Assembly (NCBI RefSeq): GCF_002117005.1
Contig: NZ_CP021023.1
Coordinates: forward strand, 496,001-560,000
Length of the DNA stretch: 64,000 nt
From: Sedimentisphaera salicampi
GTDB lineage: Bacteria; Planctomycetota; Phycisphaerae; Sedimentisphaerales; Sedimentisphaeraceae
Direction of reading: 5' to 3'
This document shows, piece by piece, positions 20,901 to 60,464 of the stretch. Each line of letters starts with the position of its first letter. The stretch's first letter is position 1. The position numbers and the translations under genes are program-made. The notes below the pieces were generated by a model. It had not been told where the DNA came from and ran no database searches. It saw nothing but the letters and a program-made list of their open reading frames with translations.

Positions 20901-21256
20901 ATTACCCCGAAAAGGCCTTCTCCTGTTGTGCTTAAGCCGCTTATCTCGTAACCTTTCTGGTAAATGTAACCGCCTAATACAGTAAGGCCGCCAGATGAAG
21001 TTCCTCCGTCAAAGCTTCCGGTGAAAGGTGTGCCTGAATCGCCGATTGTGATATCAGGAAACCCCGACAGATCCAGATCAGAAGTAACGATGAAATGGGA
21101 TGACCAGTCTGAACTCTCTTGGGAGAGGTTGAAAAGATCTTCTGCGGTAGAAATTTCATAAGGTGCAGAAGCGCTTCCGTTTCCTCCGCTGTAAGCAATA
21201 GCTCCAGCATTGAAAACCATAACCAAAGCGAGCGACAAAACAACGATTCGATTCAT
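14975..21256 (-). CDS. Giant secreted protein: GLUG repeats, nine CARDB repeats, dockerin-like end
   Basis: A 2093-residue exported protein. It has a signal peptide (about residues 1-22); a GLUG-repeat beta-helix region (about 25-375, many GGIVGxN/GGIxGxN turns); nine tandem CARDB-like Ig-fold repeats of about 105-120 residues (about 385-1470), most starting near I/V-D-L and closing with a D-E-x-N-N-W motif; two further GLUG regions (about 1475-1710 and 1715-2010); and a dockerin-like tail (GDFNSDGVVNYQDF). The ATG at 21256 has a GGAG ribosome binding site. No catalytic domain is recognised. It is probably a cell-surface or matrix adhesin or scaffold, but this is inference. It is transcribed alone, with its own terminator. 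Confidence 0.85.
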   Translation of the reverse strand: MNRIVVLSLALVMVFNAGAIAYSGGNGSASAPYEISTAEDLFNLSQESSDWSSHFIVTSDLDLSGFPDITIGDSGTPFTGSFDGGTSSGGLTVLGGYIYQKGYEISGLSTTGEGLFGVIGAGGEVKNILLVDPLVQAGDSTDNVGAVCGENDGGSILDCSAVKSEFADPNTVNVSGDDSIGGICGYNSGGTITGCFSSVNIEGDSMVGGIVGEQKNSSQISESASAGVLNAGSSFSSKAGGIVGENSNSDILNCYSFAEITGPRYTGGIIGSNTSGTIAQCYWAGPSLSFDLYGGGVVGDRSSGAFSGCLFDNTKGEGLTGVGSGASVGIEGKTNEQLRQYDTYNTAGYDFENIWLIVDGNDFARLDDTGFQPPQLPNLEPAVTSGTSLSVGTGDSFDISYSEINDGTASALPHSVKVYYNNVDSGWDSILGTQGNISEGSPGYVDSVAVPELEIDASYNGSFTLTASDNGNMLYFRIYSDGDEELLEFSELDNYSQTVTVEVVPSPELSITSVSPETQMVEPDSSTSIDVTIENDGPAVTGDFDLSLYYSSEPVSNWPDAIADSSAEHISTQVISGIGELSASTETFNFNSGTQAGLGYYAFMVDSGEAVSESDESNNFSTASTDSGDIEITVLSGIDLTVPSGSSELPDIYAGEQMQITSSIENTGQNPAGAFEAALQSSQDGVNWTDIDTVSVSSLSAGANISKEFTYTAPEQAGAYQLRILADSGEAVPEDSENNNTWDTGGVTVLDTIDLTAEFTGDSVINGAEPSQSLSIPFTVTNSGSGATGSSFTTTLYMSEDPQSWGSAAAVADVSSGELEAGASLNEQFDITLPEQEGTYYFRALTDSAGEAAEVPAPANENNNWTPDYITVDIPPVVDLTLSNVPSGLGQVYSGESVDFSITVSNGRTGEASAFDVKVYLKKADTSWFEVASEGVIALAGNSSEQVSFSFSPDTAGTYQVKVAVNPDHAVEEVDYSNNEQLAGELEVLEKIDLVSSFADYLTSPISSPAGMQVNVPGVITNMGTDTALPESGKIVTSLLLSDVSGDWGSAQHAASFEKSFVLAGEPSNGNFQFTAPVTPGEYFLKTQADSSAVVDEFDETNNLSDEVITLNVLPNIDLAVTDYPQSGTSAFLNGDVNVSSVITNLGVNTAGEFDVEIYKSSSPIDDWESLSPSDSITVSSLAAPESANADFSFPVTETEAQTVYLRIKADSGSAIEETGEVNNWSEVFELEIKPDVDLSADSSVESAEVPSGGAVEFDITASNSGSSDSKAFEAAVYISDQDSGWDTLEASDIVYSDQIIGVTAGGSETMQVSFSSPASAGTYYLKAKVDNAEAIDETDETNNWSETVTLTVPKEIDLTAAIDEGMITAYEGNEQTLGFSADCEGNAPAENFKVSLYYSETEGDWQNAELLDEEVLSSLAQGSSYNGEFTFDLPPVNSAYYLKAMVDSADTVVETDEANNWSASEQIEVLFTYSGGYGTEYAPYLIETPQDFADLTESVLQLNAYYVLLNDIDMTGFTVGSVGSASMPFAGEMNGNFKVISNLNVVEDGKTAPFAAVTGSVKNMGIDNSSVTSNTDSAAGFAVQLSDAVIEDVFAIADVEGTKAYGFAESVSGAALRRCVSLGTLLYSEESAGFVGTVTDGAAASLIENCYTSSLADSGSTGTFYGFYTTLAGSSEVNSCFWNSELGGQASPGAAGLSDSEMKKEANFKAAGWDYIDETANGEEDYWYTAESGYPEFTWTIFSGGAGTDANPFVISSAEDMEKLAAENGFWKYSFALGTDIDISEAALTPIGNESVPFTGDFSGDGYAISGFTCNALENGLCGLFGVNEGSLDWITLEDVNINITAEEANAGALAAVNKGLISQCEAMGNITIAGEYNNAGAIAAVNEAAGTIAGCFADCLMTAEGDLDAVSQVAGFNSGHIESCYAEGTINADAVAVFAGFLSGINEGTLSNSYTAQSVTDVSGDNILGALAGANINDSPEALSGCIFNSDNSAYGVGAGDSAGSAGYPHSQMTGSGIYQSAGWDSSLWFFTSDAYPELLWQVDQYSDFLLLADNWLAEGEGIPGDFNSDGVVNYQDFAYLASEVPAGNVD

Positions 21257-21305
21257 AATTTCACTCCGTTTTTGAGACAATTTTTATCAAAACTAATACT
21301 CAGGT

Positions 21306-21333
21306 ATTTTATCATTCTGCGGCTTAATAACAA
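21306..21333 (-). promoter_or_regulatory. Possible promoter of the giant repeat protein gene
   Basis: On the minus strand TTGTTA (21328-21333), a 16-bp spacer and TAAAAT (21306-21311), about 50 bp before the start codon. Confidence 0.4.
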
Positions 21334-21432
21334 GAATTAATACCGCTAAATCGCCAAAAAAGTATGCAAGCCGGCAGTTAATGCTCCGCAAAAAGGTATG
21401 AAACAGGGAATTTTTAAGGATGAAAACTAAAA

Positions 21433-27994: not shown

Positions 27995-29245
27995 TTAACT
28001 CTTCCAGAGCCCGAGCCCTGGATTTGAAATGTAATAAATATCTTCGCCGTCAATATTATTGAACCCGTCATTTAATTCATCAGGGTTGTACTTTTCCATC
28101 ATTTCATCCAAATCGGCATATCTGAAATTCACCGATTCAATCTCCTCTCTCGTTAATCCGCCCGGGCAGTAGGTAATATTGAACCGCCCTTCTGAGGAAC
28201 CGTGAATCAGGTGAGCGGCAGCGCTTAGATTATCGCTCAAATCACTGTTTTTCTTTGTATTCTCAAGAACATCGGGCGTTCCTGTATAGCCGTATTTGCG
28301 AATCAAATGGTCAATCTGTTTATCCTCGCCGAATTCCTTAACACCCGGGGCAAGAATAATCAGCTCGCCTCCATCTGCCATAGCCATACGAGTTCGGTAA
28401 ATAGCCTTGTTTCCAAGCCATGTGCTTTTGTACTCATCTGCCTCTAGCAGGACAACAGCTTTTTTTAAGGGTCTTTCCAACTGGGTTACATTTACCTTCT
28501 CAGACAGCTCAGCTGCCTTATGGAAACATTCTGCATCATCGCCTATAAACAGCCCGCGGGTAATATTCTCGTTTTCGCCGGCTTCAATAACAGTATGAGC
28601 GTAAACAACGGGCAGATGGCGGGCAAAATTCTCGCTCGCATAATTCAGAACGCTTCGAACAGGATTATCCGCCCTTCCCATTATTTGCTCCATCCCGTAA
28701 ACGGCTCCCAGATAATGGCTTTTGTTGATGCCCTCAGCCCCGCCAGTGCCAACGAAGATGTTCTTGTTGTAGTTGGCCATGCCGATAACCTCGTGCGGGA
28801 CGACTTGCCCTATCGAAAGGATAAGATCAAAATCGCCCTCTGAAATGAGCTTATTCACCTGAGCAGGCCAGTCGAAGTTGAGCCTCCCTCCGCTAACCTC
28901 GCTGATGTAGCTCGACGGCACCCTGCCTAGAGCAGTTATATCCTCCCGCCAATTATGCACTCGGAACAAATCAGAGGGTACATCTCCGAACATCCGCTTG
29001 ATTTCCGTCTCTGTCATGGGATTGTGAGTTCCAAGGGCGGGGAGAATATCAGTAAGCTTATCTCCGTAATACTCCCACGCAAAGCGGGTAAGCTCGCCGG
29101 CACGGGAATAGAATCTCGTATTATCCGGCGGGACAACAAGAACCCTTTTGCAGGCTCCAAGCATATCGAGAGCCTCAAATAGAGCTGATCGCAAATCTCG
29201 GCCGGACAGTTTTGCGTTTTCGCTGCCTGAGCTGCAGTAAAGCAT
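27995..29245 (-). CDS. LarA-family nickel-pincer enzyme, candidate mannonate/gluconate 2-epimerase
   Basis: A 416-residue member of the lactate racemase LarA superfamily (DUF2088). Residues matching those that hold the nickel-pincer nucleotide and substrate in L. plantarum LarA are visible: D41-x-T-R44 (PPDNTRF), H74 (ALGTH), H151, K161 and H177. The H-K-H distances of 10 and 16 residues equal those of LarA H174, K184 and H200. Known family members include D-gluconate 2-epimerases, established knowledge recalled without checking. Here the neighbours make D-mannonate and use 6-phosphogluconate, so mannonate-gluconate epimerisation is the best inference. The start at 29245 has a GAGGGG ribosome binding site. 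LarB is encoded at 46867-47643. Confidence 0.8.
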   Translation of the reverse strand: MLYCSSGSENAKLSGRDLRSALFEALDMLGACKRVLVVPPDNTRFYSRAGELTRFAWEYYGDKLTDILPALGTHNPMTETEIKRMFGDVPSDLFRVHNWREDITALGRVPSSYISEVSGGRLNFDWPAQVNKLISEGDFDLILSIGQVVPHEVIGMANYNKNIFVGTGGAEGINKSHYLGAVYGMEQIMGRADNPVRSVLNYASENFARHLPVVYAHTVIEAGENENITRGLFIGDDAECFHKAAELSEKVNVTQLERPLKKAVVLLEADEYKSTWLGNKAIYRTRMAMADGGELIILAPGVKEFGEDKQIDHLIRKYGYTGTPDVLENTKKNSDLSDNLSAAAHLIHGSSEGRFNITYCPGGLTREEIESVNFRYADLDEMMEKYNPDELNDGFNNIDGEDIYYISNPGLGLWKS

Positions 29246-29290
29246 AATCAATTCCCCTCTAAAACGGAAAAAACCGAATATCCACCCTAA

Positions 29291-48879: not shown

Positions 48880-50193
<1,314 letters not shown>

Positions 50194-50243
50194 TTATGCA
50201 TTATTATTAAGCTGTTTTTACATTAAAAGCAGAAACAGCGCTC

Positions 50244-56750: not shown

Positions 56751-57259
56751 ACACTAACGCCCTCAAGCCTCAGCATCCGAAGTTTCAATAAGTTACCACT
56801 GCTTCCCATAAAGCCTCCAAGTGATCCGTCTTTTTTGATCACTCTGTGGCAGGGAATAATAACAGGCAGAGGATTGTTTGCAAGCGCTCTGCCAGCCGGC
56901 CTTGCTTTGCCCTTCTGCCCTGCTTTATCCGCCAAATCGGCATAGGTGCAGATGCTGCCGTATTTTATCCTCGCCGCTGCTTTTAGTATATCCTTTGAGA
57001 AGCCTTCTGCATTAAGCTTAATTTTCAAATCACTGAAATCAACTTGCCTGCCCTGAAAGTAAAGAATAATTTTTTCAGCCGCATAACCAGGAACCTTGTA
57101 AGAAGAACTATATCGTTCTGTTATGCTCAAAACATCCTCTTTGCTGTCAGCAGGAAGAATCACTCGGCAAATTATGCCGGCTGATTCCACAATGCCCGCC
57201 CAGCCTAATTCTGTTTTGAAAACCTGATGTTCAAACTTATTTTCTGGCATTTTCTGCAT
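56747..57259 (-). CDS. ogt: Methylated-DNA-protein cysteine methyltransferase
   Basis: Repairs O6-alkylguanine by irreversible transfer of the alkyl group to its active-site Cys. The 170-residue protein has the helix-turn-helix region TYADLADKAGQKGKARPAGRALANNPLP and the signature IPCHRVIKKDG with the reactive Cys, followed by GGFMGSSGNLLKLRML. The start at 57259 overlaps the end of the upstream MFS gene by 23 bp; ATG 57250 is an alternative. Confidence 0.93.
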   Translation of the reverse strand: MQKMPENKFEHQVFKTELGWAGIVESAGIICRVILPADSKEDVLSITERYSSSYKVPGYAAEKIILYFQGRQVDFSDLKIKLNAEGFSKDILKAAARIKYGSICTYADLADKAGQKGKARPAGRALANNPLPVIIPCHRVIKKDGSLGGFMGSSGNLLKLRMLRLEGVSV

Positions 57260-58559
57260 ATCGTTCTTGCGGATTGCCTGTAAAAAATGCTGATATAAAT
57301 ATTATAATTGGGAAAACTGTAAAAGAAAGCAAAACATTGCTGTATGTCCCGAAGAAACCCTTAAGCAGGCTGAAAAGCCAAGGGCCGGCTGCTGTTGATA
57401 TTACCAGCATCGACATTGTAAGACCGTTAATTGCCCCGAGGTGTTTTCTCCCGAAAAATCTTGCCCAAGCTACAGTTCTCAGTGTATTAAAAAGGCCTCC
57501 GCTTGTCCCGAAACCAGCCATAAACATCACCCTGCCATAAAGCTTGTCCCAGTTTGCGGTTCCTATGATTGCAAAGGTTATAGCGATCATAAATATAAAC
57601 AGGATCTTTTTCATTTTCACTTTGTCGCTAAAGTATCCCCCAAGAAGATTGGAAAAAGCGCTGAAAAAAGACATAGGCATATAAAGGCCGAAAGCCTGCT
57701 GGGCTGTAAGGCCTGCTTCCATTCCAATTGCCTCAGTATGGAATGAGATTGAAGTTGTAAGAAGGGCGCTCAATGCCACTGCAAAGGTGTATATCCAGAA
57801 TTCAACAGTTTTAACCGCCTGCGACCTTGTAAAATCAAAATATTCATCCGCAACCTCCCCGCTTTTCTCTCTTGCCTTTTGATAATTCGGGCCGTCAACG
57901 TGCATGCCGCAGTCCTCGGGATTATCACGGAACATAACAAAAGCAATGATACTCATTCCTATCCCGACAGCCGCAGATAAGGCTATATACGTGCTGCTCC
58001 AGCCTATATTTCCGACCATAAGACCAAGCGGTTTGGGGGAGGCATTAAACCCGAATGAGACTACAATCCCGCTCAATGCGGCTGTAAGCCCCCTTCTATG
58101 CTCAAACCATCTGGCCATAGTAACTCGGGAGCTCATTGTCATGCAGCCCTGTCCTGAGAAACGCATAAATGTGAAGCATAGGCAGACTGCCGCAAAGGCA
58201 AGGCCGAACTGACCCGCAAATTCAGCAAAGCGGTCTATCTGACTCATCAAAAGGCATGCCAATCCAAGCAGAAAAGCAGAAATTGTACCCATAATCCTGC
58301 CGCCGAGTTTGTCTATCATCTTCCCTGCAAAGGGAAGCATAAAACTGCTCAGCAGTGTACCAACCAGATAGGCCTTGCTCAAATCTTTTCTTGAAAGCCC
58401 AACAGCCTCCCTCAGCGGCTCTGTGAACACGCTGAAGCCTATCGTCTGCCCGGGCACACTCATAACTACCCCGATAGCGCATACTGCAACGATCACCCAT
58501 CCATAGAAAAACGGGATCTTTGCAGGCTTAAAAGGAAAGTTTACTAACTTGGTACTCAA
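57237..58559 (-). CDS. MFS transporter, monocarboxylate/OFA-like
   Basis: A 440-residue, 12-segment major facilitator protein: FFYGWVIVAVCAIGVVMSVPGQTIGFSVFTEPL at the start, GKMIDKLGGRIMGT as the TM2-3 loop, and a second half beginning SQAVKTVEFWIYTFAVALSALL. It resembles OxlT/monocarboxylate porters; substrate unknown. The start is uncertain. TTG at 58559 is the only start that keeps the first membrane segment, and no good ribosome binding site precedes it. Its leader overlaps the candidate small RNA at 58598-58717, so its expression may depend on read-through of that terminator. Confidence 0.75.
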   Translation of the reverse strand: MSTKLVNFPFKPAKIPFFYGWVIVAVCAIGVVMSVPGQTIGFSVFTEPLREAVGLSRKDLSKAYLVGTLLSSFMLPFAGKMIDKLGGRIMGTISAFLLGLACLLMSQIDRFAEFAGQFGLAFAAVCLCFTFMRFSGQGCMTMSSRVTMARWFEHRRGLTAALSGIVVSFGFNASPKPLGLMVGNIGWSSTYIALSAAVGIGMSIIAFVMFRDNPEDCGMHVDGPNYQKAREKSGEVADEYFDFTRSQAVKTVEFWIYTFAVALSALLTTSISFHTEAIGMEAGLTAQQAFGLYMPMSFFSAFSNLLGGYFSDKVKMKKILFIFMIAITFAIIGTANWDKLYGRVMFMAGFGTSGGLFNTLRTVAWARFFGRKHLGAINGLTMSMLVISTAAGPWLFSLLKGFFGTYSNVLLSFTVFPIIIFISAFFTGNPQERYAENARK

Positions 58560-58597
58560 AACAATTTTATCTTTCAGCAGTATAATTTTTGTTGCAC

Positions 58598-58626
58598 AAA
58601 AAAAGAGCGGTGTCGTTGGACACCGC
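58598..58626 (-). terminator. Terminator of the candidate small RNA and tyrA
   Basis: On the minus strand GCGGTGTC-N4-GACACCGC (58607-58626) is followed by TC and seven T. Confidence 0.85.
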
Positions 58627-58717
58627 CCCCAGCTTTTGAGGCAAAGCTGGTTGTTAAGGAGGAGGAGGTCAAAATGTTTTAGAGGAGTAGTAGGTTTTTG
58701 TGAGCTTTACTATCCAA
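58598..58717 (-). ncRNA. Candidate small RNA with exposed anti-Shine-Dalgarno repeats
   Basis: Between tyrA and the MFS gene, a promoter is followed by about 120 nt and a strong terminator. The RNA would have a single-stranded 5' part with CCUACUACUCCUC and GACCUCCUCCUCCUUAAC, an 8-bp hairpin CCAGCTTT-N6-AAAGCTGG (58629-58650), and the terminator stem. The CCUCC repeats are complementary to GGAGG ribosome binding sites. No coding frame fits. It could instead be an attenuated leader of the MFS gene. Confidence 0.5.
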
Positions 58718-58723
58718 CTTGGT

Positions 58724-58752
58724 ATTCTACGGTGTTCTTATTGCAATATCAA
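58724..58752 (-). promoter_or_regulatory. Promoter of the candidate small RNA
   Basis: On the minus strand TTGATA (58747-58752), a 17-bp spacer and TAGAAT (58724-58729), directly downstream of the tyrA stop. Confidence 0.6.
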
Positions 58753-58774
58753 GGATAAATTAGTTAAAATCAAA

Positions 58775-59620
58775 TTATTTATTAATTTTTTTTCTGTACT
58801 CTCTCGCTTGCTCAAAAAAATCACGAAGCTCAGATAAGTAATTGTTGGAAATGAAAAACTTGAGTTTCTCCAGCTTTTCTATTATCCCGTCTAGACTGTT
58901 AAGCATATTTTCTGAATTTGTCATAAAAATATCTGTCCAGATATCAGAATCACCCTCCGCAATTCTGGTTGTATCGCGGAATCCCTTGCCTGCATACTTT
59001 ATAAATTCCTCGGGAGTTGAGAGCACCATAGCTGCCGCAGCAGCGTGCGGAAGATGGCTCAAAACAGCATATATACTGTCATGACGAGCGGCAGTCATAA
59101 TTGATGTCTGCATCCCCAAGGCCTCCCAAAAATCGCTGAGAAAAGAAATTTTCTCCTCACAGACCGATTCACTCGGGGTAATAATGCATCTTGCGCCTTC
59201 AAAACAAACATCACAGGCGTTGTCTATTCCGGACTTTTCAGAACCTGCAATTGGATGTGAACCTATAAAAACGCCATTGCCCAGAATGTCTTCCGCCCAT
59301 TCTGAGACAATAACTTTAGTAGATCCAACGTCGGTAACAACAGTTTTCTCATCCACGAATTGTGAAATTTTGCTGAAAATTGATTTAAAAGTTCCCACTG
59401 GAGCAGCAGCGATAATCAACTCTGCATCTTCAACACAGTCTTCTATTTCTGCCGCATACTTATCTGCAAAGCCGAGTTTCACTGCCTTGGCGGCGTTCGC
59501 GGAGGATTTATCGTAATAGGAAACCCTGCAGCCATGAAGGCGTTCTTTAACCGCCTTGCCTACAGCGCCGCCTATAAGGCCTGCTCCAATAATAGAAACT
59601 TTTTTTAAGTTTTTGGGCAT
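58775..59620 (-). CDS. tyrA: Prephenate dehydrogenase
   Basis: Oxidatively decarboxylates prephenate to 4-hydroxyphenylpyruvate for tyrosine synthesis. The 281 residues start with the nucleotide-binding GAGLIGGAVG, followed by TDVGSTK, the catalytic His region IGSHPIAGSEKSG and the helical dimerisation domain with LSHLPHAAAAA and GFRDTTRIAEGD. No chorismate mutase or ACT domain is fused. Cyclohexadienyl (arogenate) activity cannot be excluded. It overlaps the preceding N-acetyltransferase gene by 16 bp. Confidence 0.93.
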   Translation of the reverse strand: MPKNLKKVSIIGAGLIGGAVGKAVKERLHGCRVSYYDKSSANAAKAVKLGFADKYAAEIEDCVEDAELIIAAAPVGTFKSIFSKISQFVDEKTVVTDVGSTKVIVSEWAEDILGNGVFIGSHPIAGSEKSGIDNACDVCFEGARCIITPSESVCEEKISFLSDFWEALGMQTSIMTAARHDSIYAVLSHLPHAAAAAMVLSTPEEFIKYAGKGFRDTTRIAEGDSDIWTDIFMTNSENMLNSLDGIIEKLEKLKFFISNNYLSELRDFFEQAREYRKKINK

Positions 59621-60146: not shown

Positions 60147-60464
60147 TTAAGCCTGCTCTTTTTCCTGCTCCTGAGCTGCTGAATAATCTTCAGAATCATC
60201 TGAGGAATTAGAATCAGAGTAACTGTTATCGTTTCTTTTTACCTGCCCTTCAACATCTCTTATCTCAGACTCGATCTCATCAGTATCAATATCTTCAGAG
60301 ATCTGTTCTTTGGTTTCTTTAAGGCCTTCCTTGAACTCATTAACACTTTTTCCCATACCGCGTGCAATTTCAGGAAGCCTCTTGCCAAAGATGAGCACAG
60401 CAATTATTAAAATAATAATCAGCTCTTGAGGACCAAAATTTATAAAACCGAGAACGTATTCCAT
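60147..60464 (-). CDS. tatA: Twin-arginine translocase subunit TatA/TatB
   Basis: A 105-residue membrane protein of the Tat export channel. It has a single N-terminal hydrophobic helix (about residues 8-25) preceded by FGPQEL, the hinge FGKRLPEIARGMGKSVNEFK and an acidic, serine-rich disordered tail. The helix-hinge-amphipathic layout is that of TatA/E; TatB is less likely given its length. tatC is not in the window. It has a good AAGGGTGAG ribosome binding site and its own terminator. Confidence 0.9.
   Translation of the reverse strand: MEYVLGFINFGPQELIIILIIAVLIFGKRLPEIARGMGKSVNEFKEGLKETKEQISEDIDTDEIESEIRDVEGQVKRNDNSYSDSNSSDDSEDYSAAQEQEKEQA

Follow-up and report, generated by a model that had tools for sequence, protein, structure and literature searches.

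Between tyrA and a gene for an MFS transporter, the minus strand of the Sedimentisphaera DNA analysed here (the window, a stretch of 64,000 nucleotides) carries what is best read as the gene of an independent, genus-restricted and probably trans-acting small RNA resembling the C-rich anti-Shine-Dalgarno sRNAs of other phyla. In order on this strand there are a promoter directly 3′ of the tyrA stop codon, an unstructured pyrimidine- and C-rich stretch, an 8-bp hairpin and an intrinsic terminator abutting on it (Table 1). The RNA is predicted to begin near 58717 and to end within the U tract. Its fold is significant, with −35.3 kcal/mol against −20.7 kcal/mol in shuffled sequences (z = −4.3, 0 of 200 shuffles). 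The stretch 58651..58704 has 20 C and a single G in 54 nt, including 12 YC dimers, and is the sole window of such composition on both strands of 384 kb; the loop GCCUCA of the hairpin holds a third CCUC. A match to TTGATA-N17-TAGAAT is by itself not significant, as 3 sites were found where 2.4 are expected; both hexamers are kept in the sister species, and the spacer between them has diverged. The AT-rich stretch that adjoins the −35 hexamer is possibly an UP element. The earlier note had named the promoter, the C-rich motifs, the hairpin and the terminator, and its description is accurate; its claim that they make up a complete, unannotated small transcription unit is well supported by the geometry of promoter and terminator, the fold and the conservation.

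Table 1. Features of the small-RNA locus, its neighbours and one candidate target (positions in the window)
Feature	Position	Strand	Remarks
Small RNA, ~115-120 nt	58597..58717	-	predicted; promoter/terminator geometry, fold z, conservation
-35 hexamer TTGATA	58747..58752	-	identical hexamer in sister species
-10 hexamer TAGAAT	58724..58729	-	17-nt spacer to -35; hexamer also in sister species
AT-rich stretch spanning the tyrA stop codon and the region 5′ of -35	58753..58783	-	~95% conserved
C-rich motif 1, CCUACUACUCCUC	58682..58694	-	partly paired, weak 5′ hairpin
C-rich motif 2, ACCUCCUCCUCCUU	58656..58669	-	unpaired in fold ensemble
Hairpin 1, 8 bp, CCAGCUUU-GCCUCA-AAAGCUGG	58629..58650	-	no spacer to terminator
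Intrinsic terminator, 10-bp stem GGGCGGUGUC-CAAC-GACACCGCUC, then seven U	58605..58628, then 58598..58604	-	
Identical block, 101 nt	58599..58699	-	both species
tyrA, prephenate dehydrogenase family (upstream gene)	58775..59620	-	
MFS transporter gene (downstream gene)	57237..58559	-	TTG start ~39 nt past U tract
Candidate target: start region of nickel-dependent hexonate epimerase gene	29234..29268	-	UUUUAGAGG and GCUUUAC complementary, both species

A strong argument for a function comes from the sister species, the second genome of the genus to be compared; 400 kb of it were set against 384 kb of the own genome. The element is found there at the same position between tyrA and the MFS gene, and the identical block is the longest non-coding identity in this comparison, exceeding any tRNA there. 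The flanking genes are 81% (tyrA) and 86% (MFS) identical between the two species, while their 4-fold degenerate sites are only 45% and 53% identical, respectively; therefore, neutral sites are near saturation. The DNA past the terminator, that is, the leader of the MFS gene, has diverged and contains insertions. Not only the C-rich motifs but also the linkers are conserved, and since the only two copies are identical, covariation gives no test of the hairpins. Conservation of the C-rich segment and the hairpins in a relative, on which the earlier note had let its reading depend, is thus found in the sister species, with no homologue detected outside the genus. At the level of sequence, then, the element has the marks of a trans-acting, intrinsically terminated sRNA: a promoter and a terminator of its own in an intergenic region, conservation above neutral and no coding capacity. 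Other long identities were seen in the same comparison. Two lie in the leader of an ORF of 2093 aa (start 21256, minus strand), at 21306-21364 (59 nt) and 21218-21286 (69 nt), and are unusual for non-coding DNA here; another of 70 nt, about half of it non-coding, lies at a gene start (50144-50213), and one of 110 nt (60346-60455) covers the 5′ part of a tatA-like gene (ORF 60147-60464, minus strand).

Is it necessary to postulate a separate gene at all? The element might just close the tyrA operon at its 3′ end, as a stabilising hairpin and a terminator without function of their own, because it lies on the same strand and tyrA is followed by no further terminator. However, 45 nt of identical unpaired sequence are not needed ahead of a terminator, nor would a terminator account for conserved promoter hexamers past the tyrA stop codon, and we consider this explanation very unlikely. 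The only early frame on the minus strand (TTG-GAT-AGT ... CTA-CTA-CTC-CTC-TAA) ends with four leucine codons and lacks a ribosome site. In the sister species, CTG stands in place of its start codon, and the frame is shifted by an inserted A; a peptide, or a leader-peptide attenuator, was rejected on these grounds. If the plus strand were the functional one, it would read AAGGAGGAGGAGGTCAAAATG TTT TAG, a strong ribosome site followed by a two-codon frame. But the fold of that strand is weaker (z from 0 to −2.2), the TATAAT upstream of it is not kept in the sister species, and there is neither a U tract nor a continuing frame, so that this possibility is hardly worth entertaining.

How widely is such an RNA distributed? 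A covariance search in related genomes, which the earlier note had proposed, recovered the sister copy and nothing further: among 161 genomes of the order and a sample of 397 genomes of the class, the covariance model finds the RNA in the two Sedimentisphaera genomes only. Weak matches in the order and the class (E 0.08-8) resemble it in the terminator or in AU-rich sequence and lack the C-rich motifs, and three other members of the family gave E values of at least 1 only, again with the C-rich motifs absent. In 28 other relatives, the region that follows tyrA lacks such an element. No Rfam family reaches its gathering score when both gathering and relaxed thresholds are used, and no viral contig searched contains an exact 20-mer of the RNA. 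Candidate paralogues sought through CCTCCTCCTCC were rejected, as the copies outside the locus lie at tRNA genes or are coding-like. The RNA is, as far as sequence searches reach, either confined to the genus or one whose relatives have diverged past detection. The Hfq family (PF17209) is absent from both genomes while it was found in five control genomes; the RNA was accordingly not classed as an Hfq-dependent sRNA, there being no recognisable hfq in either host.

The earlier note had held the C-rich motifs to be suited to mask GGAGG sites of target mRNAs. The sequence could indeed do so, and masking of ribosome binding sites is plausible: genes in the window have moderate Shine-Dalgarno sites, and therefore a substrate for anti-Shine-Dalgarno pairing exists. 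The target searches do not go as far as this claim. In neither genome does any gene carry a GGAGGAGG ribosome site; matches to it outside the own locus resemble coding DNA or chance occurrences, and none makes a convincing gene start. No start region is fully complementary to CAUUUUGACCUCCUCCUCCUU, and the counts for the whole ACCUCC...CAU segment lie below those of a reversed control. When 204 orthologous start regions of both species, taken from the 384-kb sample, were scored against the RNA and its dinucleotide-shuffled versions, there were 19 conserved 7-mers for the real RNA and 19.7 for shuffles, and 2 conserved 9-mers against 1.2 (P 0.35); the best joint energy was −25.5 against a shuffled mean of −26.6, and the real RNA formed fewer strong duplexes than the shuffles. 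Complementarity over these start regions is thus not above shuffles, although only about 12% of the genome is represented, and such a sample would fail to reveal an RNA with few targets.

Among single genes, start regions with TTTTAGAGG in both species are those of a hexonate epimerase, thiS and a sulfatase, and the shuffle test on the 384-kb sample puts matches of this kind no higher than chance. The putative hexonate epimerase gene (27995-29251, minus strand) belongs to the LarA superfamily (NF052594, with 663 bits where the cut-off is 500). It stood out in a scan of the genes of the window: at 29245 the RNA could form 12 bp across the ribosome site and a further 8 bp at codons 1-3; UUUUAGAGG is missing in members of the bacterial family without the RNA. 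This gene and thiS are the best candidates, yet they are unproven leads only, as their pairing does not exceed chance. The epimerase gene is flanked by genes for a D-mannonate oxidoreductase and a PfkB-family sugar kinase, and its neighbourhood looks like a sugar-acid catabolic operon.

Since target complementarity stays at the chance level, it is to be asked whether the C-rich, G-poor single strand is bound by a protein (Rho, a cold-shock or KH protein, or some other regulator), in which case it would act as a sensor or decoy instead of pairing with mRNAs. Its composition, with the C content and YC dimers given above and unique in 384 kb, agrees with this idea, as does the conservation of the linkers along with the motifs. 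On the other hand, the binding protein is only putative, constraint on the linkers fits several pairing partners equally well, and Rho would be unnecessary where such a strong intrinsic terminator is present. We regard protein binding in place of pairing as unlikely.

The locus could also be interpreted in cis, as the earlier note had offered in the alternative: the element would be a terminated leader of the MFS operon, in which a factor on the C-rich stretch, or refolding of the RNA, sets read-through. The downstream gene (its nearest NCBIfam model is the L-lactate MFS transporter, with a score far under the cut-off) lies on the same strand, and this idea is kept alive because no distinct consensus promoter is evident between the U tract and its TTG start. 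The 5′ end of the RNA, GUUGGAUA, can pair with UGUCCAAC in the terminator, and GUAAAGCU with AGCUUUGC in hairpin 1; this pairing is better than that of shuffled 5′ ends (P 0.002 in the own sequence and 0.016 in the sister), in a test that was chosen after the folds had been seen. Nevertheless, the fold with the terminator is better than the best terminator-free fold by 9.7 kcal/mol in the own sequence and 12.4 kcal/mol in the sister, so that no alternative lies within about 10 kcal/mol, and the best alternative fold of the sister does not use the 5′ helix. The leader past the terminator is not conserved, and attenuation through a leader peptide is excluded by the lost frame. Altogether these observations speak weakly for attenuation of the MFS gene, which we take to be a rather improbable explanation.

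The preferred reading, an independent sRNA gene whose product most likely pairs in trans, without Hfq, with mRNA start regions, has in our judgement about an even chance of being right; that the RNA works as a regulator of some kind is very probable from its conservation. From sequence and conservation, we infer a course of events as follows. A sigma-70-type promoter just 3′ of tyrA would start an RNA of about 115-120 nt, which would end at the strong intrinsic terminator ahead of the MFS gene. Hairpin 1 and the abutting terminator would protect its 3′ end and make it stable. The working part would be the 5′ half, which is conserved and unpaired and includes CCUACUACUCCUC and ACCUCCUCCUCCUU. 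Most likely, this part would pair in trans with purine-rich start regions of mRNAs, in an Hfq-free manner, and thereby block loading of ribosomes.

There are precedents for such an action in other phyla. The alpha-r14 family of rhizobia, including NfeR1, consists of anti-Shine-Dalgarno sRNAs with the string CCUCCUCCC (PMC10746234, PMC3927594), and the present RNA is like them in being small and in having repeated, ultraconserved and unpaired CCUCC anti-Shine-Dalgarno motifs (PMC10746234, PMC3927594). NfeR1, however, is alphaproteobacterial and bears its motif in unpaired regions of three hairpins, whereas the present RNA has its motifs mostly in a linear 5′ stretch; moreover, its stems are as conserved as the motifs, and no Rfam match points to a sequence relation. 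Membership in alpha-r14 was therefore rejected, as the main motifs are outside hairpins, the three-hairpin architecture is absent and there is no CCUCCUCCC string. In Firmicutes, the C-rich sRNAs IsrR, FsrA and RsaE/RoxS bind Shine-Dalgarno sites through unpaired C-rich regions, and IsrR acts without Hfq (PMC9410917). Unpaired C-rich regions are common to these and the present RNA, which differs in sequence, structure and phylum and whose targets are candidates only. The lack of a recognisable hfq is in keeping with Hfq-independent C-rich sRNAs of the IsrR kind. Terminated leaders and attenuators, for example the L20 leader (RF00558), share with the locus the order of promoter, leader, terminator and gene, but the score against RF00558 is 15.9 where the gathering score is 58.7, with E of about 1, which is the level of chance. 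The closest functional parallels are NfeR1 and the Hfq-independent IsrR, with membership in neither by sequence or architecture.

Annotated sRNAs are very scarce in the PVC group as a whole; one count gives 8 distinct ones (PMC9029176). In the literature, we found no paper describing the mechanism of a planctomycete sRNA. It is a tentative thought, and one more apt to fail than to hold, that a planctomycete without recognisable Hfq uses a genus-specific and near-immutable C-rich RNA as a regulator of multiple targets or as a decoy for a protein that binds C-rich RNA. To our knowledge, such a mode of RNA control has not been described in this phylum. A compact and ultraconserved candidate in a genus that, in its two genomes, has no recognisable Hfq would let one test in a concrete case whether anti-Shine-Dalgarno control by C-rich RNAs has arisen independently in the Planctomycetota.
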